A DNA stretch of 64,000 nt from NCBI GenBank assembly GCA_006386115.1, contig VFIW01000027.1, positions 406,272 to 470,271 of the forward strand, given 5' to 3'. The translations under genes and the position numbers were made by a program. The notes below the pieces were generated by a model. It saw nothing but the letters and a program-made list of their open reading frames with translations, was not told where the DNA came from and did not search any database. Shown here one piece after another: positions 15,253 through 63,157 of the stretch. Numbering within the stretch: position 1 is the first letter of the stretch; each line of letters begins with the position of its first letter. The stretch comes from Globisporangium splendens. Taxonomy: Eukaryota; Oomycota; Peronosporomycetes; Pythiales; Pythiaceae.

Positions 15253-16849
15253 ATGTCTTCGATCGACGGCGACGCTGTCGATTACGACTCAAGTTGTGGG
15301 GAGGGAACTCCTTACAATTCTCCTTTGAAACTCACCACGACGACTGTCGGGCGTGATGATCGGGCGGAAGAAGCAAAGCCTTCTTCCGGAGCGAAGCGTT
15401 CATCGCCCGCGGCTCTGTTGAATGAGCCTGCGCGGAAAAAGCATCGTGAGGAGGAAGCTCCTCACGGAGAAGCGAGTGGAACCGCCGCAGCGATTGACAT
15501 TTCCGATGATGATGCATCGGAATGCACTGCGGTGGGGAAACTCGCGCAAGGAGGATTAGCTGATCCTGACTTGGTGAATGCAGCGAGAGGTATTCTCCTC
15601 TCGCTGGACGTATCCAATGGTGAATTGGACACTGTCGACCCACTCGAGGGCTTGCTCCTCGATGTGGAATCCGAGACTGATGCGCAGGTTACTGCGTCAT
15701 TGTAATGGGCCATAACCAGCCATTACATGAAGGTGGATCTGTCCCCAGATCCAGTGTACCACACACCACCTTCAGCGTGCATTGTGGAGACACAAATAAC
15801 AAAAGGGATTACAGTAATACAGTCCCCACATGCACGTGTGACGTCATCGAATGACGTCACGAGTGTTCTCTGTGCTGATCAGTGCAGAATGTTGTTCTCA
15901 TGTACTAATCAGTACAGAGTAATGACATCCATGTACTAATCAAGTACTGAGTGATGGTTCCTGCTAGGGAAACTGGGCTGGCGACGAGACCGACGTGTCT
16001 CTGCCGCCTGGAGTGAGTGGCGCGAGCCAATCACTTTGCATGGATTTTATACAAGACTTGAAGTTCAAGCTTCTAGAAGATCCCGTAGGTTCAACCTCAG
16101 TGTACCCAAGGTTTTATATATCAGATTCATAGGTTTTATTGTGTATGTTTAGGTTTTAGTTATAAAACGTGTAGGATCCCTTGGGGTTCATTTGTGAGTA
16201 GCGACAGGAATCATAACCTTTTCAATTCAGTTGCAAATTTTCCTCCAAGTACTCAAGTCTTCGTTCCTCCCTCCAAGTCGGGAGATCGCTTCCTCTGGCA
16301 CAAGCGTGTATGCCGTGTTTGAGGGACTGTTTGGAACAGCGCCCTCTTACAGTCACCGGGAAATAACGTGTCGCCACGCTGTCTTGCCTTTCCGGCAGAG
16401 CAAAAGGATCCGGTGGCGAGTCCTTCTGAAGGGATGGATTTCATCCCTTCTAGTTGGAGCCATTTGTGGGCACCCAAACCCAATTGGGTTCGTGCGCATC
16501 GTGGCACCAAGTATGGGAGAACTCACGCGCTGTACGATGTGAGTGCTGTCAAGGACGATGACTTCGTCCTTCGACAGAACTTCCATCCAAAGGTGCGTGA
16601 GGAATTTTACATCGATTTGTTCCATTCGATGCGATTCTTCGACGGTCGGTCGAAGTTAAAGAAGTCTCACAGCGCTGAGAAACAAGCGCTGTTTCTTTCG
16701 CAAGCGTGGAATGCCTTCGTTGTGAATTTCAACGGAGACGCTGCGAAATGCATCGCTCGGTTGCGAGACAATCGAGAGAAATTCCTCCGGCACAATGCCT
16801 TTGGAAAGTTGTTGGCGATCCGTGAAGACTGCAGGGATCTTGGGGTCCC
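15253..16849 (+). pseudogene. G1 antisense accessory ORF, 5' part (interrupted by solo LTR)
   Basis: The ATG at 15253 lies 198 nt from the G1 LTR, on the strand opposite to G1 gag-pol. The frame is open 15253-15700 and resumes at 16352-16849 once the 651-bp solo LTR (15701-16351) and its TSD are removed. That gives about 315 codons with no competing sense frame. The product starts acidic, has a basic stretch (EPARKKHREEE), an acidic ISDDDAS patch and then a helical part (EEFYIDLFHSMRFF...SQAWNAFVVNF) that faintly resembles the G3 antisense protein (RRFYKELFFLWRK...SWKTFV). It stops at a G3 LTR (16850). The C-terminal part is at 23616-24517. Function unknown. Confidence 0.65.
15701..16351 (+). 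repeat. G3 solo LTR, subtype b
   Basis: 651 bp, TGTAATGGGCCATAACC...GCCCTCTTACA. Flanks GTCAT / GTCAC look like a TSD with one change. It carries two TGACGTCA sites (15839, 15852), tandem TGTACTAATCA motifs and a TATATAT. It splits the G1 antisense ORF. Confidence 0.85.
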
Positions 16850-22800: not shown

Positions 22801-24307
22801 CCGACAACGGACGGAGGACGGGCGTGCTTGTGTTCGTCGACCGCTTCAGTAAGATGGTGCATCTTACTGCGGCGTCCGAGCACATCACGGCGGCGCAAAC
22901 CGCACGCGTGTTTGCTGACGCGGTATTCCGTCTACACGGAATACCGCAAGAGATTGTGTCGGACCGTGATCCTCGTTTCACGGCCCATTTCTGGACGGAA
23001 ACGTTCGCCCTTTTGGGTACGAAGTTGTCCATGTCAACTTCGGACCATCCGGAAACGGACGGCCAGACCGAACGTGTAAACCGCGTAGTTGGCGGAATCA
23101 CCCGCAGCTACGCGCATGCTTTCCCGAACTGGAGTGATTGCCTCCCGTTCGCTGAGTTTGCCATAAACAACTCAATTCACGTATCTACGGGTCACACCCC
23201 GATTTGACTACGGGGGGGGGGGGGGGGATCCGTAAATATCGTGAATACCGTGAACAGCGCGAAGCTGTTCACTCGAAACCCAAGGAAACGCATGTTGCAT
23301 CAGCAACAAGCGACAAAGACGAAGCTGTGAACAAGTTCGTCTTACAGCGTCAAGCTGTGGTCCGCTACATGAGGGACTTGATCGCTGATGCGTTCGATGA
23401 ACAAAAGCGAAAAGCAGACGCTAAAGGTCGAAAGAACTTTAGTGAATTCTGTGCGGATGGATTAGTATTGTCGTCAACTGCTGATTTACCTGCACTTGCA
23501 GTTTCAAACTACGGCTCAGCCAAACTGGCGCCGAAGTTCATTGGACAGTTCACAGTCCAACGGGCCAATGGGAATGCATACACGCTCGACACTCCGAGCG
23601 TGATGAAGCTTCGCCCTACGTTCTATGTGGGGCGCTTGAAGCGCTACTTTGTGCGCGGCGACGCTCGACGTTGCCGCGACGGATCTCGTGTTCGGCGAGA
23701 TCTGTGAGCAAACCGCAGTAATCGCTCTGGAGAGTCTGATGGCTCTCCAGGAGGTCGAGATAATCCTCGCGGAGCCGGTCGTGATCCTCTCGGAGACGCT
23801 CATGTGCATCAGAGAGTCTCTCCAAGAGCGACAGCAAGCGCGACAGCAAGCGCTCGGCGCGCTCCGAAGCAGAAACCTGACTCATCAGGATCCAGCGATT
23901 CTCCTCACGGAGGCTGACGAAAGCCGCCGCGTGCTCCCATACTTCGTGAATGAGCTCGCCAACAATTGGTTGAAGCTCCCCGATCGAGGTTGCGAGTCTA
24001 GTCACTGACGGTTGGGTTCGAGAAGAACAAGACGGTCGTTTTTCCGCTGCCTCCACCGTCGCTGGTGGACGCGCAAGGCGAGAAGCGCTGGATCGTGCAA
24101 GAGATCCTGGCGCACAAGAGGGTTCCGCGAGCTCGTGATACTGGTGACTTAGGTCATCAGCATCTAGCTTGTTGGATAGGTTTCCCTCCCGAGTCCTCAA
24201 TGTGGGAACGAAGGACTCGCTTGCGGGCGGACGTGCCGGACTTGCTGAGGGAACACGAGTCGCGCATTTCCTCGCTCCGGCGGATTTACCTTCCTCGCTC
24301 GAACTAA
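19719..24307 (+). pseudogene. G1 pol: PR-RT-RNase H-IN-chromodomain, degenerate
   Basis: Order of domains: protease (LLDTDASNNF, so the catalytic DTG has become DTD), RT (APSYFDDVFVHSK), RNase H (VVCDASDYAIGCAL), integrase HHCC and DDE (SDRDPRF..., HPETDGQTERVN), then a chromodomain near 24062-24240 (EKRWIVQEIL...WERR). Broken by TAG at 21372, TAA at 22182, TGA at 23205 next to a 16-G run (23212-23227), and TGA at 23705. Now on the plus strand although G1 is in minus orientation, because of the inversion. Confidence 0.85.
23212..23227 (+). repeat. Poly-G run of 16
   Basis: Located between the integrase core and C-terminal region of G1 pol, where related elements have ordinary coding sequence. 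It coincides with a frame change. It could be a real expansion or an assembly artefact. Confidence 0.7.
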
Positions 24308-24517
24308 CGTTCGAACCCAAGACACCATAAATGAGGTCTTTTACGGCGTGAGGTACGACGAAATTCTTGTACCCCTCGAGACCCTCTGGCGAAATACGCT
24401 CTGCACCTGGCGTGCAGAACGCACATTCAAGACACTCAGGCACCCCGTATGGGATGCCTGCACGCACACACTCGAGTGCATGCGATTGAGCTTCCCTCGG
24501 AAGGAGTGCCGCTCATA
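23616..24517 (-). pseudogene. G1 antisense accessory ORF, 3' part (coiled coil)
   Basis: Open antisense frame of about 290 codons overlapping the chromodomain end of G1 pol. Before the inversion it continued the frame at 15253-16849. The last 80 or so residues form a strong heptad-rich helix (ERAERLLSRLLSLLERL, HERLREDHDRLREDYLDLL), followed by a basic end. A stop sits within 5 nt of the G3 junction at 24518, probably created by the junction. Compare the C-terminal coiled coils of the G3 and G4 antisense ORFs. Confidence 0.6.
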
Positions 24518-24651: not shown

Positions 24652-25693
24652 ATGAAGCGATCAAGCGAAGCGCGAAGAACAGCCCGAGCCGAAGCGGCAG
24701 CGGACGACTCCCGGCTTGTACGACATCTCCGCTATTTGCAAGAAGCGTGGAGGATGTCGATTCTACAAGGAGTTGTTCTCCCTCTGGCGCAAGATGTCCG
24801 GCAGCGACGATCCAGGCCAGTCCAGCACAGCGAAGCTCGAGTCGTGGAAGACGTTTGTCCGACTCGAGAACGAGCATCTTGTCGAGCGTTTGCTAGGGAA
24901 CCTAGGAGGCACGCTCGAGAACGACCATAAAGAGCTTGGCTCTCGTCGTTCTAGTGCTCGCAAGAGCACTACAAGCTCTGCTCGTAGCTGTGAACCACGT
25001 CGGGAACATCAGACTGAAGAGTCTCTCGAGGTTCCCACGTGTCTGAGTCCGGTGGATAGCCAAGCCACCGTACTTTGTAGAAGCGCTGACGGTTCAACGA
25101 CTTCTCTCCTCGACGACGAGTCGATCGGTCCTCATGATCGACTATCGACTCAACGATCCAACGGCGCTCTCCCTGGTGATCGATCAGAGGAGGTGGGGTT
25201 GAACACGAAAACGATTGAGCGACTCTGGAAGTGGAAGAGTGCTCACCGCGCTCAGATCGAGGCTCTTGAAGTTCGCAACGCGGTACTCGAAGACCGGTGC
25301 GAAAGCCTCGAAGACCGGTTGAAGGAGCAGGAGTCGAAGATCGACTTGCACTTCGATGGTCTTGCCCAGCGTTCGGCAATGGAGTCACGTTTCGAACAGA
25401 GGTTCGAGAAGATTCAAGCCGAGCTTGAACGACTCCAGAAGGCTGAGAAAGCTCGTGATGCGTATCACGAACGTCTACTGCGCTCTGTGGAAGAGGCAGG
25501 GGTTTCTCTTGAGATACTTCGGAAGGAGTATCATGGTCGCCTTCTCGCGTTGGAGGCAATAAAGGACGAGTCCTTTGATGTGCTTCAGCGCCTTTATGCC
25601 GAGAAGAAGCTCCATGGCGATGAGTTACAGACTCTTCGCGAGCTGGTGGAGCGACTTCAGGATCAACTTGATCATCCGTCAAGGGCTCTATAG
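24652..25693 (+). pseudogene. G3 antisense accessory ORF (copy i)
   Basis: Opposite strand to gag-pol, starting MKRSS 77 nt from the LTR and ending inside the pol C-terminal region. An 8-nt deletion just after the start, compared with the fragment at 38432-39015, breaks the first 20 codons. From 24716 the frame is open for 325 residues: FYKELFSLWRKM...SWKTFVRLE, a charged linker, then a long coiled coil (KTIERLWKWKSAHRAQIEAL..., ERLQKAEKARDAYHERLLR, ELVERLQDQLD). The first 320 nt or so lie beyond the pol stop and the rest is antisense to the chromodomain and linker. Unknown function. Confidence 0.65.
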
Positions 25694-31544: not shown

Positions 31545-32568
31545 ATGAAGCGATCAAGCGACCAAGCGAAGCGGCAGCGGACGACTCCCGGGTTGTACGA
31601 CATCTCCGCTATTTGCAAGAAGCGTGGAGGACGTCGATTCTACAAGGAGTTGTTCTTCCTCTGGCGCAAGATGTCCGGCAGCGACGATCCAGGCCAGTCC
31701 AGCACAGCGAAGCTCGAGTCGTGGAAGACGTTTGTCCGACTCGAGAACGAGAATCTTGTCGAGCGTTTGCTAGGGAACCTAGGAGGCACGCTCGAGAACG
31801 ACCATAAAGAGCTTGGCTCTCGTCGTTCTAGTGCTCGCGAGCACTACAAGCTCTGCTCGTAGCTGTGAACCACGTCGGGAACATCAGACTGAAGAGTCTC
31901 TCGAGGTTCCCACGTGTCCGAGTCCGGCGGATAGCCAAGCCACCGTACTCTGTAGAAGCGTTGACGGTTCAACGACTTCTCTCCTCGACGACGAGTCGAT
32001 CGATCCTCATGATCGACTATCGACTCAACGATCCAACGGCGCTCTCCCTGGTGATCGATCAGAGGAGGTGGGGTTGAACACGAAAACGATTGAGCGACTC
32101 TGGAAGTGGAAGAGTGCTCACCGCGCTCAGATCGAGGCTCTTGAAGTTCGCAACGCGGTACTCGAAGACCGGTGCGAAAGCCTCGAAGACCGGTTGAAGG
32201 AGCAGGAGTCGAAGATCGACTTGCTGTTCGATGGTCTTGCCCAGCGTTCGGCAATGGAGTCACGTTTCGAACAGAGGTTCGAGAAGATTCAAGTCGAGCT
32301 TGAACGACTCCAGAAGGCTGAGAAAGCTCGTGATGCGTATCACGAACGTCTACTGCGCTCTGTGGAAGAGGCAGGGGTTTCTCTTGAGATACTTCGGAAG
32401 GAGTATCATGGTCGCCTTCTCGCGTTGGAGGCAATAAAGGACGAGTCCTTTGATGTGCTTCAGCGCCTTTATGCCGAGAAGAAGCTCCATGGCGATGAGT
32501 TACAGACTCTTCGCGAGCTGGTGGAGCGACTTCAGGATCAACTTGATCATCCGTCAAGGGCTCTATAG
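31545..32568 (+). pseudogene. G3 antisense accessory ORF (copy ii)
   Basis: MKRSSDQAKRQRTT start, with an in-frame deletion relative to the fragment at 38432-39015. Open for 107 codons, then a 2-nt deletion near 31839 shifts the frame; it resumes and runs to the same coiled-coil C-terminus (stop at 32566-32568). Antisense to pol from 31844. Confidence 0.65.
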
Positions 32569-38431: not shown

Positions 38432-38690
38432 CAGAGTCGCTCAATCGTTTTCGTGTTCAACCCCACCTCCTCTGATCGATCACCAGGGAGAGCGCCGTTG
38501 GATCGTTGAGTCGATAGTCGATCATGAGGACCGATCGACTCGTCGTCGAGGAGAGAAGTCGTTGAACCGTCAGCGCTTCTACAAAGTACGGTGGCTTGGC
38601 TATCCACCGGACTCAGACACGTGGGAACCTCGAGAGACTCTTCAGTCTGATGTTCCCGACGTGGTTCACAGCTACGAGCAGAGCTTGTAG
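38432..38690 (+). pseudogene. G3 copy iii pol, chromodomain end only
   Basis: VAQSFSCSTPPPLIDHQG followed by the chromodomain (GERRWIVESIV...TWEPRETL) and the C-terminal SYEQSL. Everything upstream is replaced by the LTR at 37782-38431. Confidence 0.8.
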
Positions 38691-39015
38691 TGCTCTTGCG
38701 AGCACTAGAACGACGAGAGCCAAGCTCTTTATGGTCGTTCTCGAGCGTGCCTCCTAGGTTCCCTAGCAAACGCTCGACAAGATGCTCGTTCTCGAGTCGG
38801 ACAAACGTCTTCCACGACTCGAGCTTCGCTGTGCTGGACTGGCCTGGATCGTCGCTGCCGGACATCTTGCGCCAGAGGAAGAACAACTCCTTGTAGAACC
38901 GACGTCCTCCACGCTTCTTGCGAATAGCGGAGATGTCGTACAAGCCGGGAGTCGTCCGCTGCCGCTTCGGCTCGGGCTGTTCTTCGCGCTTCACTTGGTC
39001 GCTTGATCGCTTCAT
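38432..39015 (-). pseudogene. G3 antisense accessory ORF (copy iii), truncated
   Basis: The best-preserved N-terminus of this family: MKRSSDQVKREEQPEPKRQR, with a PKRQR basic NLS-like motif, then GLYDISAIRKKRGGRRFYKELFFLWRKM and the linker. It is cut at 38432 at the beginning of the coiled coil, and the frame then runs into the LTR. Confidence 0.65.
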
Positions 39016-43900: not shown

Positions 43901-45594
43901 GAGTATGGATTTCATATTCGGACTTCCAAGAGACAAACACGGACGCAATGGCATCCTTGTGTTTGTGGACCGATTCAGCAAGATGGTTCATCTTGCGCCT
44001 GTTTCGGACAAGATCTCTGCTGAGAAGACTGCCAAGGTCTTTGTAGACGTCGTATTCCGTCTACATGGACTACCAGTCGAGATCGTGTCTGACCGTGACA
44101 CCCGTTTCACGTCCAAGTTCTGGCGTGCACTGTTTGGACTTCTGGACACCAAGTTGTCCATGTCAACAGCGGCACACCCTGAAACGGACGGTCAAACAGA
44201 GCGAGTGAATCGCGTCCTCGAAGACGTGTTGCGCAGCTACGCAACGTCTTTCAAAGAGTGGAGTGAGTTTCTCCCTCTTGCCGAGTTTGCGTTGAACAAC
44301 TCCACGCATGTCTCGACGGGTCACTCTCCATTTTATGTGAACTATGGCATTCATCCCCGAGTGCCTGCTTCCACAATGGGTGAGGTCTCTACCTTAAGTG
44401 GGGGAGGGACTCCGGCTCATGGTAACAAGCCGAAGTCGTCTTACGACCTGAATGCTGCTTCCGAGTTGAAAGCGAATTTTGACTCGATGAAACCCCTCGA
44501 CGACCTAACAAGTCGTGAAGAGCAGCAAGTCGATGACTTTATCGTGAGGAGACAAGCCGTTGTGAGGTTTGTTCGAGACGCAATCGCGAAGGCTCAGGAT
44601 CTGCAAAAGGAACAAGCAGACAAGAGCGGAAGGAAGAACAAGCAAGTATATAAGATCAATGATCTTGTATTACTTAGCACGGCTAACTACCTGAACATGC
44701 AGTGTCCAACTTGGGGAGCTCGAAACTTCTGCCAAGATATATTGGACCGTTCAGGGTAGTTAAATGCAATGGTGATGCCTACACGCTAGACATACCTACA
44801 CGCATGCGTCTACACCCACATTTTATGTGGGTAGACTAAAGCCTTACCTTCCAAGTGGATCTGCGGATCCTACGAGATCTTCCGCAAACGATCGAGCTGA
44901 TCGTGAAGCTTCTCCACTTGATTGCGAAGAGCAAACAGCTCATCGCTCTGGAGATTCTTCTCGGCGTACAGGAGTTGCAGGACGTCGAAGGATTGGTCCT
45001 TCATTGTCTCCAACGCTTGAAGGCGAGAATGGTACTCGCCACGAAGTACCTCGAGAGCCGAACCTGCCTCTTCCACAGAGCGCAAAAGGTGATCGTGAGC
45101 CAACTCACGAGACTTCTCGTTCTTCTGGAGTCGAACAAGTTCGTCCTGAACCTGTTGGAACCGTTCCTCGAAACGGGACTCCAAAGCCGAACACTGGGCA
45201 GAACCTTCTGTCAGATCGTCGATCTTCGACTCATGATCGGCGACAAGGTTCTCGAGACTCTCGCAGCGTTCCTCAAGCGTCGAACAACGCTGCTGCAAAG
45301 CCTCGATTTGCCCACGATGAGCACTCTTCCACTTCCAGAGTCGCTCAATCGTTTTCTCGTTCAGCCCCACCCCCGTTGTTAGACTCTCAGGGAGAGCATC
45401 GCTGGGTGGTTGAGTCGATTGTTGATCATGAAGATCGACCGACTCATCGTCGAGGAAAGAAGCGGTTGAACCATCAACGCTTCTACAGAGTTCGGTGGCG
45501 TGGATATCCACCGAGCTTGGACACGTGGGAGCCTCGTCAGACATTGGAGTCTGATGTTCCCGACGTGGTCCGCAGCTATGAGAACTGCTTGTAG
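40749..45594 (+). pseudogene. G3 copy iv pol, several stops
   Basis: Same domain order as copy ii. Interrupted by a private TGA at 42114-42116 (Trp codon of RQWPLP), by TGA 42661-42663 and TAG 43851-43853 (both shared with copy i), and by a frameshift near 44690. The chromodomain (GEHRWVVESIV...WEPRQTL) is at about 45380-45580. Confidence 0.9.
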
Positions 45595-45936
45595 CGTCGC
45601 CAGGGGCGACACTACGACGACCAGAGCTACGGTTCGCTCTGTCGTCAGCGGGAGTTCTTCTTTCGGCACGAGCATTGCCACGACGAAGAAGACGCTCCAT
45701 TTTGTTCTCGTTCTCAAGACGAACAAATGTTCGCCATGAGTCTCTCTGGGCTGCGATGTGTTGGTTCGGATCATCGCGATCGTTGATCCGACGCCAACTG
45801 AAGAACCGCTCCTTGTAGAACTCGAGCTCCCCCTTCTTCTTCAGAATGGGAGAATGTCGAAGAGTTCTGGAGCTGTCTGCTGTCGCTTGGACGACGGACG
45901 TTCTTCACGGTTCACTTGGTCACTTGGTCGCTTCAT
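44870..45936 (-). pseudogene. G3 antisense accessory ORF, subtype b (copy iv)
   Basis: Starts MKRPSDQVNREERPSSKRQQ and frameshifts near 45850 (stop in the region corresponding to DISAIRKK). It is then open for 276 residues ending in the coiled coil (KTIERLWKWKSAHRGQIEAL..., VEKLHDQLDRLRKIS). It is clearly diverged from copy i, yet the coiled coil keeps about two thirds of its residues with no length change. Confidence 0.65.
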
Positions 45937-47982: not shown

Positions 47983-48516
47983 TGTAACGGGGCTACACTG
48001 TAACATGGTTACGCACTTGTGTTGTGCCACACAACCAAACCGAACCTTGCGGTACGTAGAGTACTCGCAACAAGTTTAAGACCGAACCGTGAGGTTCGTC
48101 GTACTTGCTCGAACCTTCACGGTGGAGCCGGCAGCCAGTCTGAGTGACGGCGCCTCCGATTGGACATAATTGAACATGCATTTCATCCAATCACATAAGA
48201 CAACTAGCGTTAGTCTTTCATAGCCACTCATTGCCCCATGGGGAGTAATTACACTTGAGATTGCTATTGTTCATAGTTACATAAAGATAATCCAGGTTGT
48301 CCTACAGAGGGCAACCTCCAACAAATAAACAGTTCCATTTTTACCGTTAACTGAGTCTTTGGTTATCGACGGTTACTCTATAGAGACCTACAGGTAACCG
48401 ATTGTTGCACTGCAGGAAGCAGGCAACCGCTCTCGGAACAGAGTCCTTGAGAGAAGCGTTGCATACGCTTCCTCACACACGTACTGTGCTGCGTAACTCG
48501 GAAGTGTCCGGTTACA
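47983..48516 (+). repeat. G4 5' LTR
   Basis: TGTAACGGGG...CCGGTTACA, 534 bp. Confidence 0.9.
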
Positions 48517-48588: not shown

Positions 48589-49749
48589 ATGGCGTCAATT
48601 GACCCTGCGCAGTTCCCGCACCTCTCGGCTGAGCACCGGAGTGTGCTGACCCGAATGGCACAAGCGCTAGGCGACCAAGTCGCTCTAGACGTGCTCTCGG
48701 CGTCGCCGGAACAGCAAATCTTTCGACTCGAGCAGTTCGAGAACTTCTCGAACGCTCAGCGCCTCGAAGGAGAGCGAAGTGCGCAAGCACAAATGCAAGC
48801 CACCGCAAGCTTGACCGCAGAGATGCTGCGCTCAGCTGCTGAGTCGCGCGAAGCGCTCGAGCGAGTGGTATCTGTGTTTGCTGGTGCAGCCACGTCTTTG
48901 TCGAGTGCGGCTTCTGCGCCTCAGACACCCGCGTCCCAAACTCCCCGCCCAAGAGCTGTCAAGATCGACGCTCCGAAATTCGATGGTGCGGATGGCGACA
49001 AGCTCATCCACTGGCTACTCGCCGTGGAGCGTTGCGCCAAGGCTCAGCTCATCGACAGCAACGAGCAGATGGTGTCTTACGCCATCTCGAACCTGCGCGG
49101 TCGAGCGTCGGAATGGGCATTCTCGACGTTGCTCGCCGATGAGTGTGCATTCGACACGTGGGATATTTTCCGTGCGAGAATCACCGCCATGTATCAGCCT
49201 CCGAACAACGAAGTGCTGTTGCAAGGTCGTTTCTTCTCCTTGAAACAAGGGAAGCTCTCGCTGGAACGATACATCCAGGAGATGAGAAGCCTGTGCGCGG
49301 CGATCACGACCAGCCCTTTGCCTGAGTCTGTGAAAGTACCTGCGTTTCTCAACGGCCTCAACAGTGGACCAGCGCGTCAGGAGTTGTACCGACGCTTGCC
49401 GGCCACGATGGAAGATGCGATCCGCATTGCGCTCGTTGAGCAGCAATCGTTCAGAGTCAGCCGACCTGATTGGAACGCTGGCCGCCACAACGGTGCGCAT
49501 CACAGCCACCGAGCAGTCACGAATGAGCGGCGCTTCCATGGTCCGACACCAATGGATCTCAGCAGCGCCGAAGTGACCTGCTTTAACTGTGGCAAGCGAG
49601 GACACTATCAGTCGAAGTGTCCCGCTCCAAGGCAGTCTGCTCCTCGCACTGGAAATCAGGCGAGGGACTACCAAACGCCGCGCGGCAACCACGCTCATCG
49701 AGGTGGCAGATCCGCTGTGGCAAGAAAGGGAAACGGAATGTCTCAGTAG
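48589..49749 (+). CDS. G4 Gag, intact
   Basis: 386 residues: N-terminal LSAEHRSVLTRMAQALG, capsid region (PKFDGADGDKLIHWLLAVE, LRGRASEWAF, QPPNNEVLLQGRFFSLKQG) and a zinc knuckle (CFNCGKRGHYQSKC). Near the end GGGAAAC (49728-49734) is in phase as G GGA AAC, a classic -1 slippery heptamer, 12 nt before the TAG. Confidence 0.9.
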   Translation: MASIDPAQFPHLSAEHRSVLTRMAQALGDQVALDVLSASPEQQIFRLEQFENFSNAQRLEGERSAQAQMQATASLTAEMLRSAAESREALERVVSVFAGAATSLSSAASAPQTPASQTPRPRAVKIDAPKFDGADGDKLIHWLLAVERCAKAQLIDSNEQMVSYAISNLRGRASEWAFSTLLADECAFDTWDIFRARITAMYQPPNNEVLLQGRFFSLKQGKLSLERYIQEMRSLCAAITTSPLPESVKVPAFLNGLNSGPARQELYRRLPATMEDAIRIALVEQQSFRVSRPDWNAGRHNGAHHSHRAVTNERRFHGPTPMDLSSAEVTCFNCGKRGHYQSKCPAPRQSAPRTGNQARDYQTPRGNHAHRGGRSAVARKGNGMSQ

Positions 49750-50293
49750 AAGCGGGACGCTCTACTGAGACAGACTCTATAGCTTCGGCGTCGCCGACTA
49801 CTAGAGTCGTGCAGATGGGAAGCTTAGTCCCAGGAGCTCTTGGCAACAAGGCTCCGAGTGAGATGTTGGTATATAGCGCCGATGTGAAGGGCTATGAGAA
49901 GAAAATGACGGTTCTTGTTGACTGCGGTGCGTCACAGAACTTCGTCTCGAAGGCAGCTCTGGAACAGAGTCTGCAAGCGTATGAGCGACTTGTCCACAGT
50001 GGCAAGCGCGAGAAGATGATCGTACGTCTGGCCGATGGGTCGGCAGTACACACTGAAGGGGTTCAAGTCGAACTCTCTTTCAGTTTTTGCGACTTTGTCT
50101 GCAAAGAAACGTTCGTGGTACTAGCGATGGGGTCGAAGTACGACCTCATCCTAGGGATGCCTTGGCTGGCGAAACATCAGCCTTGGATCGATTGGCGAGC
50201 ACGCACAATCGGGAGCTCCACCCCTTCCTCTGATGAAGAGCGAAGGTTGCGGGAAAATTTCCACGCAATGGATGCGAGCTTTGAACACGCTGT

Positions 50294-50368
50294 GGCAGGG
50301 AGCCCAGCTAGAAGATGCGCTGAGGCAGGGAGCCCAGCAAAGAGATCAACTGCGGCAGGTAGCCCAGT
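50294..50368 (+). repeat. 30-bp tandem repeat in G4 pol
   Basis: Two and a half units beginning GGCAGGGAGCCCAG, encoding repeated AGSP blocks after the protease, next to the frame change. Confidence 0.8.
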
Positions 50369-53300
50369 TTGTGCGGAAGCGCCAGAAAGTCCAGACGTGG
50401 ACGCTGGTGCGCAAGTGTGCGGCTCCAGGGCCCCGAGCCAGCCCCCGCAAGTGACAGCGACAGTACAGGTGTACACGCGTCAACCAGCTCGTACCACCCT
50501 GACGGTGCAGTACTGGAGCTCAGAACCGCGAGGTCGCGTGTTCGCATCAACCGACGAGGGCGACGCAAGTTGTCAGCTCGCGAGAGAGACAGTGCATTGG
50601 CATCTGTTGCTGAGGAAACGGCCGCCTCGCATATGATTGCCCCATCTCTCAATGCAGCTGCAACTTCGCTGCGCGCCTTCGACAGGACCTCGGATCCGTC
50701 GATAGATCGCGCTCACGTTGATGTGGCGCTCAGACGCGCGAAGCGCAGTCCGGAAGCAAACGCATCAGACGAAGTGTTCTTCGCTGAATTTGCGGCGCTC
50801 CATGAGCTGCCGAGTACCGTTGAGGCGATCGTATCCCTCGAAGAAATGAGTTATGAACTCTTTCTTACGGATCTAGAGCGTGATCAGATCCGCGAGATCG
50901 TCGTTCCGACTGCGTTCACGCGTAGCGAACTATGCACCTCGTCCACTGCGGATGAGAGTGTTTTGGAGCCAGACAAACAGAAACGGTTTGCTGCTCAGGA
51001 TTGGGACGCCGTGAAAGGCAGTCCATACTTTGACTTATTGTGGGAGTTCAAAGATGTGTTTCCCGACAAAGTGCCAAGTGCCCTGCCCGTTGATCGTGGC
51101 GTACGGCACGAGATTGACCTCGAGCCCGGGAGCAAATATTGCGTGACCAGACAATGGCCGCTGCCCCGCGAGCAGGTTGAGGCAATCGACGAGTTCTTCG
51201 CGAAACGTGCCCTCGCCGGTCATGTGAGAGAAAGCAAGTCTCCACATAGCTCACCCACGTTTTGTGTGCGGAAAGCGACTGGTGGCTGGCGCATTGTTCA
51301 CGCTTTCAACAAGCTGAACGCCGCCACCATTCCGGCACAAACGCCGATCCCAAGGAAGGATGTCTTGATCGACTCCATGGGCGGCTCGACAGTGTTCTCC
51401 GCACTGGATCTGATGGATGGGTTCTATCAGATCCTCATGCGAGAGAGTGACGTTCCCTTGACGGCAGTAAGCACACCCAGCGGGATGCTGTGGGAGTGGC
51501 TCGTTATGCCACAAGGTTTGAAGAATGCACCAGCGACGTTCAATCGTCTGGTAACGCATCTTCTGCGTCCTCATCGTGCGTATGCACCGAGCTATTTCGA
51601 TGACATCTTCGTGCACAGTCGTGCCGAAGGAGGTCTCAGTGTCGTTGACGTGCACAAGAGACATTTGCGCTCAGTGTTGCAGTGCTTACGAGACAACAGT
51701 CTGTATTGCAACCTGAAGAAATGCATCTTTGGCGCCTCAGAGATACCGATCCTGGGCTGCTATGTTGGCAAAGCTGGCGTCCGCGCGGACCCAGAGAAGA
51801 TCAAGGCGATCGCCGACTGGCCGATCCCAAAGAACGTCAAGGACTTGCGCAAGTGGCTTGGCTTGGCAAATTACTTGCACAAGTACAGCCACAACTATGC
51901 GGCAAGAGTCCGTCCGCTCACGCATCTCTTGAAAAAGGATGTCGAGTGGGACTGGACGAATGATGTCATGAATGCATTCATTGACGTGAAGGAGTCGCTC
52001 GTTCGCGCTCCTGTCCTGGCGTTGCCGGACCACACGAAAGCCTTCAGTGTCGTGTGCGATGCCAGCGATTTTGCAATCGGCTGTGCGCTGATGCAGAAGG
52101 ATGATGACGGCCATGAGCGCGTCGTATCATACCAAAGCAGACTGCTTAAGGCAGCTGAAAAGAATTATCCTGTGCACGACAAGGAGCTGCTTGCGATCAA
52201 GTACGCTCTCTTGAAGTTCAGGGTCCACCTTTTGGGTGCGACACCGTTCGTTGTGTACACGGATCACGCGTCCTTGCGGACCGCGATTAATTCCCCCCAT
52301 TTATCGCAGCGAATGGCGCGATGGCTTGCATTCTTCTCCGAGTTCAACTTTCGGGTCGAATACAAGCCGGGAAAGGAAAATGTTCTGGCGGACGCGCTCT
52401 CGCGCCGTCCAGATTACGAGTCGAGCGCTGACAGCAGCTCTGACGCCCTGTGTTTGGAGCGCACTCCTGATCTCATGCATCTGAGCATCAGTCGAGTGCA
52501 AACAAAGCTCAAGGACAACATTCAGTCGCTTTATGCAAAGGACGATGAATGTCGCTTGTTGATTGCTCACTTTGACGGCTCGTCCAAAGAGTCATTGCCT
52601 GCCAAACTCGAGTCAAAGCTTGCTCGGTTTAGTTACCACGACGGGTTGTTGTGGCATCGACTGTCCAACTTCGATTACCCGCGTGTGTATGTACCGCATG
52701 ACCAGGATCTGAAACTTTCGATCCTGCATGAGTTTCACGATGCACCAGCGAGTGGGCATCTCGGACGTGAAAAGACCTTCTTGCAAGTGTCTAATGTGTT
52801 TTGGTGGCCACACCAATACAAATGGGTGGCCAATTATGTACGCTCATGCGAAGCAGTGCCAGCGCGTGAAGCCTGCGGGCAAGAACAAAGCGCCGCTGCA
52901 TCCGCTGCCGATTCCGCAAGACTGCTGGAAGTCGGTCAGCATGGATTTCGTCTTCGGTTTCCCGGAAGACAAGGCGCGCAACACAGGCGTCGTCGTGTTC
53001 GTCGACCGACTGAGCAAAATGGTGCACGTTGCACCCGTGCGCAAGCATGTCACTGCGCAAGAGACGGCGTGCCTATTTTTAGAGCACGTGTTCCGCTATC
53101 ACGGCTTGCCCGAGTCTATTGTATCAGACCGGGACCCGCGTTTTACCGCTGCCTTTTGGCGCGAACTCTTTCGCCTGCTCGGCACAGATCTGGCGTTGTC
53201 CACTGCCGATCACCCCGAGACAGACGGGCAAACCGAGCGCGTGAACCGTGTCGTCGAGGATATTCTTCGCAGCATCGCTGTCGATCATCCCCGCGACTGG

Positions 53301-53602
53301 AGCCGCTGGCTGCCGTACGCCGAGTTTGCTATAAATAGCAGCGAGCACGCCTCTACGGCCGTGACTCCGTTCTATTTTAACTCGCTGCGGCACCCGCGCG
53401 TACCCGCCACTCTGTTCGAGGGCGTCGAACGCTCTGCGGTGGGAGGGCAACTCGCTGCGCTCGATGCGAGCGCGCGATCTCCGTCACCGGACGTGGCGTC
53501 GACCGCTCACGTGGACGCGCGCGATGCGCCGCCTGTGCGATCGCGTTCCGAATCTGTCACGATCTTACCGGACAGCACGCAGAGTATTGACATCTCGGGA
53601 AC

Positions 53603-53715
53603 GGTACTGAGTTACGGTACTCGTGTCCCTAAAGATGGATCACCCACGGTACCGAGTTACGGTACTCGTGTCCCTAAAGATGGATCACCCACGGTACCGA
53701 GTTACGGTACTCGTG
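53603..53715 (+). repeat. 45-bp tandem repeat in G4 pol linker
   Basis: Two full units and a half unit (53603, 53648, 53693), 15 residues each (SYGTRVPKDGSPTVP), between the integrase core and the chromodomain. Confidence 0.9.
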
Positions 53716-54207
53716 CTAAAAATAGCCAGTCTCAGACGGAATCAGGCGACTGCTCGTGTGAGCGTCAGCCACGAATGGAAGGACGCGCGGTGTCACACAC
53801 CGGCGCAGAAATAGATCTCTCTGCAGCACGCGCTGCGAGAGCAACGACAAAGCAAGACAAAGCCGTCGCGGCAGCGCGCCAATTTGTCGATGAGCGCGCA
53901 GCATTGTTGCGTCGCGTACGCGACCAACTAGCTGCTGCGCAAGACAAGCAAAAGCTCTACGCCGATAAATCGGGTAGAAAGAACAAACAAACGTTTTGTG
54001 TGGGTGATAAAGTGCTTTTAAGCATTAAAAACCTACCAAACGATGCAGTCACAACGCTCCCCAGCGGGAGTAAGTTGTTGCCACGATTCATCGGGCCATA
54101 CACTGTTGTGGAGAAGATTGGAGACTTGAATTACAAGCTCGATCTCCCAACGAGAATGGCAACGCACCCCGTGTTCTACGTGGGTTTGCTTAAGCGCTAC
54201 CATGACG

Positions 54208-55752
54208 CTACTGTGGATTTTTATCCCAGTCCGGGAGAACGTCGGTCTCATCAGGGGGCTCAGACGCCGCCCATCGAGACACGAGCGCGTTGTGCCTCTC
54301 CCAAAGCGTCTTCACTCGCGGAGCGTACCTCGCGTGGAAGTGCTTCCCGCGGACATGGTACTCCTCCAGCATCTGACGAGCTTCCTTCAGCTCCGTCTCA
54401 AGCGCTGTCACCCTCTGCTTCAACAGCGAGGTTTCGTCCAGATATTGCTGGCGAAGGGTACGGACGGCTTGCTGTAGCGCCCCCAAAGACGATGCGTTCG
54501 CGTGAACCATCTGAACCATCGCATCTGGTGCAACCACCGATGCTGAAGCGAAGTAGGGCGCCACCTGTCCCGCTGATTGACAAGCAGGGACAGCGCCACT
54601 ACCATGTTGAGCGCCTGCTGCGTGTGCAGCGGCGTAAGGGGAACACCCACTACCTTGTGAAGTGGCGTGGGTACGATGTGTCGCAGAGCTCGTGGGAGCC
54701 TGCTGAGCGTCTTCGCGAAGACGTCCCGGATCTTGTTGACGCCTTTGAGGCGCAACTGAGGGACTGTCATTCGCGCGAGTAATTTGTCGCCTGTTACCAG
54801 CGCGACCACCCGCTCGCAGAGGCGTGCCACCGCCCTGCTTGGAGCGAAACAGACGAACACGGTCAACTGCAAATTGCATGCGTTGACTGCGTTGAGCTGT
54901 CGGATCGGTAGACACTGTGCGAGTGCTACCTCCCTTAATTTTATTGATGCACGACATGAAGTCGGCATCGTACTCTTCTTCAGTCTCTCCAACAAAGAGG
55001 ACGACTGGGATCGGGTGAATACGCAATTCCCCATTTTCACCCCGCAATCGCTTTTCACGCCAATTTTTAAATTGAGCGTCATAGTCCCGCGCACAAAGTC
55101 TGGCTCTCGCGAGCAGATTCGATGCGGTCTTGCCAGCCGGCCATAGTTCTGGCGGCGGCATTTCGGGCAGTGAGTACTTGAGCTCATCGTGAACGATGGC
55201 TCGCACTCCTGCCTCTTCGTTTGTAATGAGGACTTCGTGCTTCCTCTTACGATTGTTGACAGCCTCAACGGCGTCATTTTCCTCCTTCGTCCGATACATC
55301 GAGACGTCAGCGGATGGATCTCGCTCGAGCTCGTGGAGATAAGCGGCGTGTCGCTCGCTTTGCAACTCCTCGTACTCGACCCACTCGTCGACGGAGCCGA
55401 GCTTCACGGTGAGCGCTCCCTCGTCTTCAAGCGAGCTCCCGTCATTGTCAACGACGAGGAATTCCTCAGTCGCTTCCTCCTCTTCCAAAGCACGCGCGAA
55501 CAGCGGCTTCACGGAAGGGAGATCTCCGAATCGCAGCTCACTGCTTATACCAGGAGCGCTATCAGATGTGGGAGCAGACCTGCCGTCGCTCTCCGCAGGC
55601 ACGTCGACCGCATCCGCGGTGACCGTCGTTCGTCTTGCGCTCGACGCGACCTCTCTGTCTTCCTCGCGCTTGCGCAGAGTTTCGACGAGAGTGCCGACGC
55701 CTTCCCCTTTTTGTCGCGCGAGCTTCTCGCGGACAGCTTTGTTGGTGGCCAT
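54208..55752 (-). CDS. G4 antisense accessory ORF, intact (514 aa), coiled coil
   Basis: ATG at 55752 (the frame is open to 55794), 186 nt from the 3' LTR and running toward pol. About 970 nt lie beyond the pol stop, where no sense frame exists, so this is not a coding shadow. The last 575 nt are antisense to the chromodomain end. The product has a charged N-terminus, a very acidic middle (EEEEATEEF, DEWVEYEELQ), a basic NLS-like NNRKRKHE, a conserved-looking central block (LLARARLCARDYDAQFKNW), a Gln/Ala/Ser-rich part and a C-terminal coiled coil (QQAVRTLRQQYLDETSLLKQ, VTALETELKEARQMLEEY). No known domain recognised. Intact while G4 pol has frame changes. Confidence 0.7.
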   Translation of the reverse strand: MATNKAVREKLARQKGEGVGTLVETLRKREEDREVASSARRTTVTADAVDVPAESDGRSAPTSDSAPGISSELRFGDLPSVKPLFARALEEEEATEEFLVVDNDGSSLEDEGALTVKLGSVDEWVEYEELQSERHAAYLHELERDPSADVSMYRTKEENDAVEAVNNRKRKHEVLITNEEAGVRAIVHDELKYSLPEMPPPELWPAGKTASNLLARARLCARDYDAQFKNWREKRLRGENGELRIHPIPVVLFVGETEEEYDADFMSCINKIKGGSTRTVSTDPTAQRSQRMQFAVDRVRLFRSKQGGGTPLRAGGRAGNRRQITRANDSPSVAPQRRQQDPGRLREDAQQAPTSSATHRTHATSQGSGCSPYAAAHAAGAQHGSGAVPACQSAGQVAPYFASASVVAPDAMVQMVHANASSLGALQQAVRTLRQQYLDETSLLKQRVTALETELKEARQMLEEYHVRGKHFHARYAPRVKTLWERHNALVSRWAASEPPDETDVLPDWDKNPQ

Positions 55753-55924
55753 GATACTCACGTGCGCGAGCACAGTGACTATATATGCCAACACTCGGTG
55801 AAATTAACGCACGCGTCGCCGCTGTGCTCTTTCCCGAGGAATACACGAATGTTCCCCTTTCTCGGCGCACACGCGCGAGATCCACACGTTTCTCACACCG
55901 ACCCTTCGAGTGTTTCGCACTTTA

Positions 55925-55937: not shown

Positions 55938-56471
55938 TGTAACGGGGCTACACTGTAACATGGTTACGCACTTGTGTTGTGCCACACAACCAAACCGAAC
56001 CTTGCGGTACGTAGAGTACTCGCAACAAGTTTAAGACCGAACCATGAGGTTCGTCGTACTTGCTCGAACCTTCACGGTGGAGCCGGCAGCCAGTCTGAGT
56101 GACGGCGCCTCCGATTGGACATAATTGAACATGCATTTCATCCAATCACATAAGACAACTAGCGTTAGTCTGTCATAGCCACTCATTGCCCCATGGGGAG
56201 TAATTACACTTGAGATTGCTATTGTTCATAGTTACATAAAGATAATCCAGGTTGTCCTACAGAGGGCAACCTCCAACAAATAAACAGTTCCATTTTTATC
56301 GTTAACTGAGTCTTTGGTTATCGACGGTTACTCTATAGAGACCTATAGGTAACCGATTGTTGCACTGCAGGAAGCAGGCAACCGCTCTCGGAACAGAGTC
56401 CTTGAGAGAAGCGTTGCATACGCTTCCTCACACACGTACCGTGCTGCGTAACTCGGAAGTGTCCGGTTACA
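55938..56471 (+). repeat. G4 3' LTR
   Basis: 534 bp, about 5 differences from the 5' LTR. Confidence 0.9.
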
Positions 56472-59522: not shown

Positions 59523-59770
59523 CACAAGCACACCAATCGAAGAAGAGATGCTGAGACTCTCGGTGTTGTTGCTTGCTGGCACAGTGGGGAAGCCGATCGA
59601 ATAGACTCGTTCTTCTCGCACGTCGGCAACCGAAGACAAAGCACTCACCTTTTCCACGAGCTCAAACGTCGCGGCTTCAAAGCGCACCTGGTTGCTGATC
59701 CAGAAACTCGTGGAGCGCTTAAAGAGCTGCTCGGCGGCTCCCGATTCTTGACGCAGCAGGTTGTTCAGCT
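59523..59770 (-). pseudogene. Subtilisin-like protease, prodomain part
   Basis: Encodes ELNNLLRQESGAAEQLFKR, then STSFWISNQVRFEA, LVEKVSALSSVADVREE, ending VLVNG at the G1 target site. The pattern is that of an inhibitor-type propeptide directly before the mature APEWGIAKIQ start found at 14663. The 5' end (signal peptide) is cut off by a LINE tail at 59771. Confidence 0.8.
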
Positions 59771-60763
59771 CTTTATAAGGTGAGGTATATTTAGGTTCAT
59801 CGTCGTGACCTACAATATCCATTCTCCTACCTAATCTTCATTGCGAATTTCATCTAGGAGTGTAAATGTGTCTACAGCGCGGATTGCAATAGATCACTTC
59901 TGAATGCTAAATAATCTTTGACCAGGATGGCATGTTCTCTTGGTCCTATGTGAGGCTGCCTTGTGTTGTCCATGACCGTGGGTCTTCCGAACTTCGCACA
60001 AGCCAATGCATGACGTCGTTGTCAAGATCCTGGGTGAGATTGTTGAAAGCAGCTCGATGAGTTGGGAAGTGAACCTGCGTTGAGGTTCTGGTGTCCATGG
60101 CTAGGTTGGCGGCTGAGTCCGCCATCTTGTTGAAGGCACGGTAGTGATGGTACCATCCTCGGATGTCGATGCAATCCGCGAGTCGTCGACTTGTCTGGTA
60201 TAGTCGTGCCAATCGGTGCTGTCGAGGGGACCGATGCATTCTCTGTTGGGAGATAATGAGTGCACTGTCTCCAATCACGTACAACGGTTCGAAGTGACTG
60301 CGTTGGGCTTCTCGGAGTCCGTGTATGAGACCCCAGTACTCGGCAAAGTTGTTGGTCGTGTCCTTCCTGCTATACGCCATGCTCGCGGCCCAAATTAAAC
60401 TGGCTGTGTGCGAGTCCTTATGGACACGCACGATGATGGATCCAGTCCCTCCTGGTCCTGGATTGCCGCGTGATCCACCATCGAAAAACAACAGGTAAAC
60501 GCCGCGAGTATCACTTGGAGTCAAGGGGAGGGCGTCGGTTTGGCTGAGAAAGCAGTCGACATATGCCTTGAGAACTGCTGCAAACGTGTGACCGTCCGAG
60601 TCTCCAGCTTGCGCTTCAGCGAGTCGTGTGAGGTTTCGCATTCCTGCCTCTAATCTGGTCATCATGATCGCCATCTCAGCAGTCGATTTGATTGGATCCG
60701 AATCCATGCGTCGCAGATGCGCACACCAAATGGCATGTATGAGCGACGCGCTCATATATCGCC
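59771..60763 (-). mobile_element. LINE copy B, 5'-truncated
   Basis: 3' end with RNase H domain (FDGGSRGNPGPGG, FAEYWGLIHGL, IGDSAL), 3'UTR and CTTATAAAG tail. One missing T near 59975 shifts the C-terminal frame (EDPRSWTT instead of EDPRSLDN). Its 5' boundary joins LINE copy A at 60763/60764. Confidence 0.85.
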
Positions 60764-61049
60764 TCCTATGTGAGGCTGCCTTGTGTTGTCCAATGACCTT
60801 GGATCTTCCGAACTTCGCATAAGCCAATGCATGACGTCGTTGTCAAGATCCTGGATGAGATTGTTGAAAGCAGCTCTTTGAGTTGGGAAGTGAACCTGCG
60901 TTGAGGTTCTGGTGTTCATGGCTAGGTTGGCGGCTGAGTCCGCCATCTTGTTGAAGGCACGGTAGTGATGGTACCATCCTCGGATGTCGATGCAATCCGC
61001 GAGTCGTCGACTTGTCAGGTATAAACGTGCCAACCGGTGCTGTCGAGGG

Positions 61050-61062
61050 GACCGATGCATTC
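61050..61062. repeat. 13-bp TSD, left copy
   Basis: GACCGATGCATTC, repeated at 61173-61185 around the short LINE insertion. Confidence 0.9.
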
Positions 61063-61172
61063 TTTATCTTTATCTTTATAAGGTGAGGTATATTTAGGTT
61101 CATCTTCGTGACCTACAATATCCATTCTCCTACCTAATCTTCATTGCGAATTTCATCTAGGAGTGTAAATGT
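61063..61172 (-). mobile_element. Extremely truncated LINE insertion (110 bp)
   Basis: Consists only of about 90 bp of LINE 3'UTR and a tail of three ATAAAG-like units. Perfect 13-bp TSD. It interrupts the RNase H region of copy A. Confidence 0.9.
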
Positions 61173-63157
61173 GACCGATGCATTCGCTGTTGGGAGATAA
61201 TGAGTGCACTGTCTCCAATCACGTACAACGGTTCGAAGTGACTCCGTTGGGCTTCTCGGAGTCCGTGTATGAGACCCCAGTACTCGGCAAAGTTGTTGGT
61301 CGTGTCCTTCCTGCTATACGCCATGCTGGCGACCCAAATTAAACTGGCTGTGTGCGAGTCCTTGTGGACACGCACGATAATGGATCCAGTCCCTCCTGGT
61401 CCTGGATTGCCGCGTGATCCACCATCGAAGAACAACAGGTAAACGCCGCGAGTATCACTTGGAGTCAAGGGGATGGCGTCGGTTTGGCTGAGAAAGCAGT
61501 TGACATATGCCTTGAGAACTGCTGCAACCGTGCGACCGTCCGAGTCTCCAGCTTGCGCTTCAGCGAGTCGTGTGAGGTTTCGCATTCCTGCCTCTAATCT
61601 GGCCATCATGATCGCCATCTCAGCAGTCGATTCGATTGGATCCGAATCCATGCGTCGCAGATGCGCACACCAAACGGCATGTATGAGCGACGCGCTCATA
61701 TATCGCCACAGCATGTGTGCGACGGGATAGAGATGATCTTGGAGATGTTCATTGGAGAACTTGTGTCCGATAATGTGTCTCTTGATCGTGGTCCATGCAT
61801 GCCTTGGAGTTTGTGGTAGATCCAGACTGAAGATCCAGATTGCGGGGTCGTGACCAGGAGTGATTCCGATCTTCGCCCATAGCGCATAAAAGTAGTTCCA
61901 CACGAGTTTGGCTCTCGGACACTCCCAGAATAGATGTTGAACAGAAGATTGGACAACTTGGGAGCATTCGGGATTCGAGCAGGACAGATCAGCTTTCTCA
62001 TAGTTCCACATGGAGAGTCGGTTGGCTTTCAGCCGGAGAAGAGTCTGAGCCGTATAAGCAGTAATCCCTTGGATGTTGTGTAATTCGCTCCATTGGATTA
62101 ATTGTAGTCCTGGCCACAGAGATCCTGCTGTATGGACAGCTTTGTTGACTGCTGCATCTCGAGTATCTTTGCCAATTTGTGTCCTCGTTACTGCAACTTG
62201 TTGCCGATAGAAAGATCTGGTGGTATTGTATCGTCCGTTGCCACCCCATAGTTGCACGATTCTTGTGAAGCGTGGATGTGCATGGAACGACACCTTCTGC
62301 CCGTTCAAGTCTCTTGTTGCCATGACGTCACAGTCCATTGCGGAGTGGACTGTATGCGTAGCTTTGACTAGGGTCGTGTCGACGTGGGTCAGAGTTGCTT
62401 CACTGGTGTGCAGATGCCATTCGTGGTTATAATGACGTTCCCCGTTGTACAGCCGAAGCACATTTGTTTGCTGTGGTCGATACAGGAGCTGTGGGAAGTT
62501 GGATACCAACGTAGCACATAACCGCTCGAGCGCTCGAATAGACGGCCGGGAGAATCTGGAGATTCCACATGTTGGGATGAAGTTAAGCACTCCTGGTCTT
62601 ATCCACTCCCATCGAAGTATGTCACCCAGTTGTGCTGTTCCAACTGATAATGATGTGTGAGCAAGCTTGTGAGGGGAGCCGTTGGAATCAAGAAGCCACC
62701 CATCTGCAGTCGAGGTCATGTATGGCAGCCATTCTGCACAGAATGTCCCACGTAGCTTTCGTCCTTCGGCGATGATACCTGGAAGCCTGTCAGACATTTT
62801 AGAGCTGAGGTCGATCTGGAACACATCGCCGTCCCATTGAGTCTGCACAATTGTCGACTTGAAGTGCTCGTAACACCAACGTACATTATCACGTTCTCTG
62901 GTCTCATAGGGTCGAGAATGGAGCGACGCACACAATGCTGCGCCAGTTGTCCACATGTTATCACGAAGCTGGGGTGGCCGCCTTGGAATTGCATCGAGCG
63001 GCGTGATGTACGTCGAAGAAGCCCTTGTGTTGTACAGCAAGATTTCCCCGATGACCTGATCGATGTGAGAGGTTGTGATTGCCCATCTGGAGACTGCTGT
63101 GGCACTCATCGTCATCAGCTCAGTTCTGATGTTGGGTACTGACAAGCCTCCATTCAT
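61157..63157 (-). pseudogene. LINE copy A ORF, post-RT and RNase H part
   Basis: 666 codons open from the ATG at 63157: MNGGLSVPNIRT, a long thumb/connection region, Cys/His cluster (CSNPEC...H....C), FDGGSRGNPGPGG and FAEYWGLIHGL. It is in a different frame from the RT piece because the A-run at 63155-63160 has six As instead of seven. Truncated at the end by the 110-bp insertion. Confidence 0.85.
61173..61185. repeat. 13-bp TSD, right copy
   Basis: GACCGATGCATTC. Confidence 0.9.

Follow-up and report, generated by a model that had tools for sequence, protein, structure and literature searches.

Some plant Gypsy elements and a few retroviruses are already known to carry antisense accessory genes. 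Passages of two papers (PMC11963269, PMC7264820) describe antisense open reading frames (ORFs) between pol and the 3' long terminal repeat (LTR) in the plant elements Grande, RIRE2, and Retand. These ORFs are kept in most copies, most of the Retand ones carry TRP28, and a nuclear regulatory role has been proposed for their products. Among retroviruses, the HBZ protein of HTLV-1 is nuclear, as noted in a passage of PMC11963269. Here we describe a 64,000-nucleotide (nt) stretch of the oomycete Globisporangium splendens (contig VFIW01000027.1, positions 406,272 to 470,271), called the window below, which contains retroelements denoted G1 to G4. In the G4 element, a frame of 514 amino acids (aa) is encoded on the strand opposite to gag and pol and is almost certainly a genuine protein-coding gene. 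A first-pass annotation had assigned to three Ty3/Gypsy families (G1, G3, and G4) an accessory antisense ORF whose product ends in a coiled coil, and this is supported by selection, by the copies found, and by the predicted helix.

G4 has what identifies a Ty3/Gypsy LTR retrotransposon: paired LTRs, gag, protease, reverse transcriptase (RT), RNase H, integrase, and a chromodomain, with an SH3 domain also recognised. Its LTRs are 99.06% identical and have the termini TGTAAC ... GTTACA, and the 5-bp repeat CAAAA flanks the element on both sides. The antisense frame runs on the minus strand from an ATG at 55752 to a stop at 54208-54210. As first annotated, it starts near the 3' LTR (185 nt away) and runs into the 3' end of pol. 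The pol stop at 54782 leaves 1,155 nt to the LTR at 55938, and most of the frame indeed lies where there is no pol: codons 1-322 of 514 are outside, and the remaining 192 (323-514) overlap pol. The end of the frame had been placed antisense to the chromodomain. This has to be corrected, as the chromodomain faces codons 333-384 and the coiled-coil end faces the linker between the SH3 domain and the chromodomain of pol. The features of G4 are as follows.

47983..48516, forward strand: 5' LTR, paired repeat.
48589..49749, forward strand: gag (Pfam PF03732, PF19259, PF00098).
49617..54782, forward strand: pol with protease, RT, RNase H, integrase, SH3, and chromodomain; several frames here.
54003..54203, forward strand: SH3 domain of pol; the antisense frame stops 13 nt past its YVGLLK motif.
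54204..54599, forward strand: SH3-chromodomain linker of pol (132 aa); the other strand encodes the antisense coiled coil here (helix residues 409-494).
54600..54752, forward strand: chromodomain of pol (Pfam PF00385), where selection is on the sense strand; the facing middle part of the antisense protein is predicted to be disordered.
54208..55752, reverse strand: antisense accessory gene, 514 aa, backed by genomic matches, substitution ratios, and homologues.
54211..54782, both strands: two-strand coding stretch, antisense codons 323-514 and the end of pol.
54783..55752, reverse strand: portion of the antisense gene clear of pol (codons 1-322), with a predicted fold at residues ~190-306.
54710..55881, no strand: exchanged cassette, 31-49% divergent between copies A and B1 (150-nt windows 54750-55799).
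55938..56471, forward strand: 3' LTR, paired repeat.

The 1,018-nt stretch of G4 outside pol contains 340 codons without a stop. In 2,000 first-order Markov simulations, which model base order and not the codon use of pol, the stop-free length has a median of 109, a 99th percentile of 217, and a maximum of 296 codons. The frame is thus longer than chance, as had been expected of a real gene. Antisense frames opposite gag and pol in the window reach 227-296 aa. These speak for the alternative of a shadow frame, open merely through pol codon use and base composition, and because of them length alone lends weak support to a gene. Beyond length, what we take as decisive in the sequence comparisons is protein-level selection together with homologues at 38-43% identity.

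Antisense genes of G3 and G1 are found in the window as follows.

24656..25693, forward strand: most of the G3a antisense gene; the ATG part is outside this frame.
31783..32568, forward strand: G3b antisense gene, 3' two thirds open.
38432..39015, reverse strand: 5' fragment of a G3 antisense gene, cut by a repeat at 38431.
44870..45904, reverse strand: G3c antisense gene, 5' end in another frame.
15253..15705, forward strand: 5' piece of the G1A antisense gene.
16368..16849, forward strand: middle piece of the G1A antisense gene, cut by an LTR-like repeat at 16850.
23616..24512, reverse strand: 3' part of the G1B antisense gene, of another subfamily than the 15253 piece.

The annotation of the G3 frames has to be corrected: none of the four window copies is uninterrupted from ATG to stop, and intact ones exist elsewhere in the genome (e.g., L013). 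The two G1 stretches, 15253-16849 and 23616-24517, had been treated as one G1. They belong to different elements and subfamilies, being ~32% identical. A repeat resembling a solo LTR (15701-16351) splits the former, and at 16850 a second repeat cuts it.

Selection was estimated as the ratio of nonsynonymous to synonymous substitution rates (dN/dS) by simple counting (Nei-Gojobori); the pairs are few and related, and those with a common reference are not independent. Outside pol, dN/dS is 0.37-0.38 in G4 (the window copy against four copies of the diverged version B, 317 codons, dS ~1.36, dN 0.51-0.52). A single G3 pair gives 0.23, and a single G1A pair, compared over two pieces, gives 0.21-0.39. 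Rows were dropped from the comparisons where the frames depart, namely the overlap row of L028 and the rows of W31783 outside pol (20 codons). The shifted frames of the antisense strand have dN/dS of 0.86-2.05 over all comparisons with stops present; in the G4 comparison the values are 1.07-1.46 with 3-22 stops. One sense frame per comparison is also low (0.34-0.50), mirroring the antisense codon positions, and it is not the coding one because it contains stops. Outside pol, antisense third positions are the most variable (p ~1e-5 to 1e-7 in five G4 pairs sharing one reference). Young G4 pairs are less clear: dN/dS of the window copy is 0.58 with L037, 0.86 with L039, and 0.65 with L040, the last two being chimeras of versions A and B. 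The values of 0.21-0.39 in G4, G3, and G1A thus bear out purifying selection on the antisense frame. A shadow frame is refuted by this selection: 322 codons of G4 lie outside pol, dN/dS is low there in three families, and homologues at 38-43% extend over the full length, so that we give it practically no chance.

Another explanation is that the antisense RNA matters rather than a protein, through silencing or through interference with sense transcription. Convergent transcription over the end of pol would produce double-stranded RNA, as proposed for plant elements in a passage of PMC7264820. Selection at the protein level and conservation of start and end are not what a role of the RNA alone would predict, and we regard such a role as quite improbable; an RNA role could coexist with the protein.

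The draft genome of G. splendens has 53.3 Mb in 195 scaffolds >10 kb and 17,350 predicted genes, with gene models built with transcriptome hints that give no strand evidence (PMC7163027). In the 53,310,241 bases (195 contigs) searched, match counts are lower bounds. The G4 antisense protein has at least 84 matches, at least 63 of them full-length (residues 1-514), and 48 of these 63 are free of internal stops (hand count). For G3, at least 117 matches are listed, 95 of which have no internal stop (hand count). Random stops would be expected in family members if the frames were spurious; instead, stops are rare among the full-length members. For G1A, 47 of the 150 rows listed span residues 4-162 or more of the 192-residue query; the others are mostly short pieces, many of which are LTR. 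G1B gives at least 15 rows, several being pieces of one copy. Note that the antisense protein served as the query for these searches, and copies lacking the gene are not counted. Twenty G4 loci were taken, of which L052, with stops and frame changes, was omitted from the analyses of dN/dS, identity, and substitution position. The B copies were chosen mostly among stop-free ones, and the 17 of 17 stop-free copies are therefore no independent evidence.

In protein databases, 34 homologues are found for G4, four of them at 38-43% identity on short jgi/lgn contigs, which are probably metagenomes. The products from G. splendens itself are entered there as 'hypothetical protein FI667_g...'. The start MATNK is retained in four of the five most distant G4 proteins (39-43% identical), while P0032 starts elsewhere. 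The search with G3 found 82 proteins with identity down to 43%, and that with G1 found 13, all from G. splendens. None of the three has a named plant or viral relative in this search, which can detect only proteins with 5-residue words in common. By a hand tally, the clusters that have a G. splendens antisense product as representative contain ~440 sequences (116 G4, 286 G3, and 38 G1), compared with the 17,350 predicted genes of the draft; some members may have other sources. Several hundred 'hypothetical proteins' of this species thus seem to be transposon genes. Three gene models (P0003, P0007, and P0077) fuse a gag or Copia protein to an antisense protein; they are probably artefacts of neighbouring or nested elements.

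In the overlap with pol, the antisense phase relative to pol is identical in G4, G3, G1A, and G1B. Antisense position 2 is opposite sense position 3, and antisense position 3 is opposite sense position 2. Over the chromodomain, changes at the sense third position prevail: 17 vs 8 in G3 (p=0.11), 9 vs 2 and 11 vs 2 in G1A (p=0.07 and 0.02), and 8-13 vs 3 in G4 (p 0.02-0.23). The sense third position is free there, and therefore pol is selected over the chromodomain. Over the linker of G3, antisense position 3 has 73 changes vs 36 at position 2 (p=5e-4). The linker of G1A goes in the same direction without significance (18 vs 10 and 19 vs 8; p=0.19 and 0.05), and that of G4 has too few changes to tell (3-9 vs 0-6). 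In the control region, pol upstream of the overlap, the pattern of G3 flips to 31 changes at the sense third vs 8 at the second position; G1A has 19 vs 6, and G4 goes in the same direction in five pairs, with p<0.05 in three. For these counts, the chromodomain/linker borders of G3 and G1A were set by eye, and Pfam borders were obtained later. In G3, going by these substitution patterns, the folded part of each strand's product faces the loose part of the other's. For G1A and G4 the data fit such an interlock and are not proof of it. The better conservation of the antisense frame than of pol over the G3 linker is a further point against a shadow of pol.

The SH3-chromodomain linker of pol is 132 aa long in G4, 185 in G3, and 98 in G1A. 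It is 28 aa in G2, the chromodomain element of the window without an antisense gene. It had been noted that G2 has no space for one, and this is confirmed by the pol stop at 58285 and a repeat (putative LTR) from 58290. With G2 as the single negative case, a tie between long linker and antisense gene is no more than suggestive. In five measured copies, the antisense frame terminates close to the pol SH3 domain, at -26 to +28 nt relative to the end of its YVGxLK motif.

The antisense gene has diverged versions in otherwise similar elements. In 150-nt windows, version A (the window copy) and version B1 (L041-L043) are 94-100% identical at 53250-54599 and 91-92% at 54600. They are 51-69% identical at 54750-55799, and again 96-99% in the LTR windows 55950-56399. 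The borders are sharp in L041: there are 6 differences in 54000-54709 and one at about every second base from 54710, and on the right there are only 3 between 55882 and 56100. The exchanged piece comprises antisense codons 1 to ~347 plus the sequence preceding the ATG. Clear A/B chimeras make up 3 of the 37 antisense proteins scored (P0013, L040, and L039) and their breakpoints differ; L038-L040 were picked for intermediate identity, so this number is no rate. Another example is found in G3. The window elements G3a and G3c are 95-100% identical at 42600-44799 and 57-80% across the antisense gene (44870-45904), with divergence rising gradually from ~44640. These alignments show that element backbones which are nearly identical have exchanged diverged versions of the antisense gene. 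LTR elements are established to undergo template switching between co-packaged RNAs, which would yield such a cassette pattern. Version B also occurs with another U3 type (L044, L047, L049, and L051). In these G4-type copies the U3 differs and a stretch on the R/U5 side is shared, implying that the LTR is also exchanged piecewise. Because the cassette type does not follow the U3 type, U3 fits less well as the site of the protein's target than the cassette, R/U5, or a partner protein does.

Exchange of diverged modules between near-identical backbones, together with the predicted coiled coil, speaks for copy-number control, in which a coiled-coil protein would poison the assembly of Gag or integrase and diverged modules would make the control subfamily-specific. 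Ty1 p22 is an analogue for poisoning of assembly. This explanation is unlikely, as the Pfam matches listed for the antisense proteins include neither Gag nor pol domains, and the basic patterns of G3 and G1 are of nuclear type. More speculatively, a retrotransposon lineage of oomycetes may have combined an antisense regulator interlocked with pol and a specificity module exchanged by recombination into a modular self/non-self control of copy versus copy within a single transposon family; we consider this possible and rather doubtful.

The model of the G4 protein has a mean pLDDT (predicted local distance difference test) of 57, with a compact part at ~190-306 (block means 62-87) and an 86-residue helix at 409-494. 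Most of the remainder is below 50. The G3 model has a mean pLDDT of 72.7, four short helices at 29-86, and a single 170-residue helix with block means of 84-98. A long C-terminal helix is thus predicted in both families, in agreement with the annotated heptad-rich C-terminus. The resulting layout is an N-terminal module outside pol, a predicted disordered middle opposite the chromodomain, and a predicted C-terminal helix opposite the linker. Pfam was scanned at E<=0.1 with 13 G4, 26 G3, and 9 G1 proteins; for G3, the matches listed are those to the 25 commonest of 56 families. The scan gives no match for the G4 window protein or for the G1 proteins. Weak matches to coiled-coil families occur in G3 and in some relatives of G4, the best E being 2.1e-5 (2 of 26). 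The G3 profile matches both designed and natural coiled coils among PDB sequences (GRAND CoilSer, GCN4 fusions, and LINE-1 ORF1p; E 0.0056 to 1), the matches spanning residues ~205-284 with a best E of 0.0056. This speaks for a coiled coil in G3 and not for kinship. Fold comparison of the models gave no match and recognised nothing beyond the coiled coil.

Basic clusters resembling nuclear localization signals had been reported for all three families. The RKRKHE of G4 is not conserved, as only 2 of 8 G4-family proteins have a cluster at that place. In G3, 14 of 15 family members have a bipartite basic pattern within the first ~55 residues, and all six G1 proteins have a basic cluster in their N-terminal part; both are pattern matches with no chance control. 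The G1 antisense proteins (L032, 883-2490, reverse strand; L018, 592-2346, forward strand) have a common cysteine pattern, C-x6-C-x7/8-C-x2-C, after a conserved W..FV motif. This pattern may bind zinc.

Nuclear-type patterns in G3 and G1 also suit an anti-silencing or chromatin-targeting factor, which would aid the element against the host or steer integration with the chromodomain. The gene occurs with chromodomain elements, and diverged modules would suit an arms race. Over the whole part outside pol, however, dN/dS stays far under 1 and gives no hint of positive selection, and G2 has a chromodomain but not the gene. We give this explanation a small share of the probability.

Outside pol, G1 and G3 share collinear motifs (E=6.5e-4, one comparison) and G4 shares none with either. 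The overlapping C-terminal parts are similar (E 3e-6 to 5e-3), which may reflect coiled-coil composition or pol and is not relied on. What supports a common origin of the three antisense genes is their shared position, phase, and end point, and not their sequence.

Other genes lie beside this retrotransposon cluster. Two glycosyl hydrolase family 7 (cellobiohydrolase-type) genes at 4810-6195 and 11233-12747 have 86% DNA identity, and a Peptidase_S8 (subtilase) fragment is at 13588-14220. The stretches 837-3384 and 59770-63259 are inverted near-copies (~97%) of elements with RVT_3/RNase H domains and RVT_1 nearby; the latter has internal repeats at 59770-61707.

The best overall explanation, to which we give about an even chance, is a genuine backward gene of chromodomain elements acting as a regulator. 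That the protein regulates its own element we put slightly below even, and a nuclear, self-associating regulator is its most likely form. The antisense gene would be transcribed from the 3' LTR or from the cassette start. Its product may enter the nucleus in G3 and G1, given the N-terminal basic patterns, and may self-associate through the long predicted coiled coil. It could then act in trans on nucleic acid or chromatin and set the expression or integration of the element. Such a trans-regulatory role is proposed for the Grande and Retand antisense proteins and known for HBZ. A preserved protein with swapped diverged versions hints at elements that supply a regulator of their own, and the compact 53-Mb genome makes the role of antisense retrotransposon proteins testable.

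HBZ dimerises via its C-terminal helix. The likeness of the G4 gene to HBZ and to HIV-1 ASP is one of arrangement, an antisense gene of a retroelement; no bZIP family is among the Pfam matches listed for the G4, G3 (25 commonest of 56 families), and G1 proteins, and a long helix is predicted instead. In position, the gene resembles Grande gene23 and its RIRE2 and Retand counterparts, as far as the passages of the plant papers go: it lies between pol and the 3' LTR and is present in most G4 and G3 copies found. The likenesses to Grande and to HBZ, drawn in the first-pass annotation, stand. Transposase_28 (TRP28, PF04195) is not among the matches listed in the Pfam scan above. Retand, according to a passage of PMC11963269, is a non-chromovirus with 2.9-6.6 kb between pol and LTR, compared with 1.16 kb in G4, and unlike in Retand the G4 gene overlaps the chromodomain end of pol. 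Among oomycete elements, Chronos is described in passages of PMC5348765 as a Ty3/Gypsy element that captured a chromodomain; the word 'antisense' is absent from the main text of that paper. In a full-text literature search, no oomycete antisense retrotransposon gene was recognised among the results as judged by titles and the openings of abstracts. The Grande and Retand ORFs and HBZ are therefore best taken as analogues, not shown relatives. To these, the present case adds protein families for which no relative was recognised, evidence from codons that selection acts in three families of elements, dual coding with constraint divided between the strands, and an antisense gene exchanged as a cassette.
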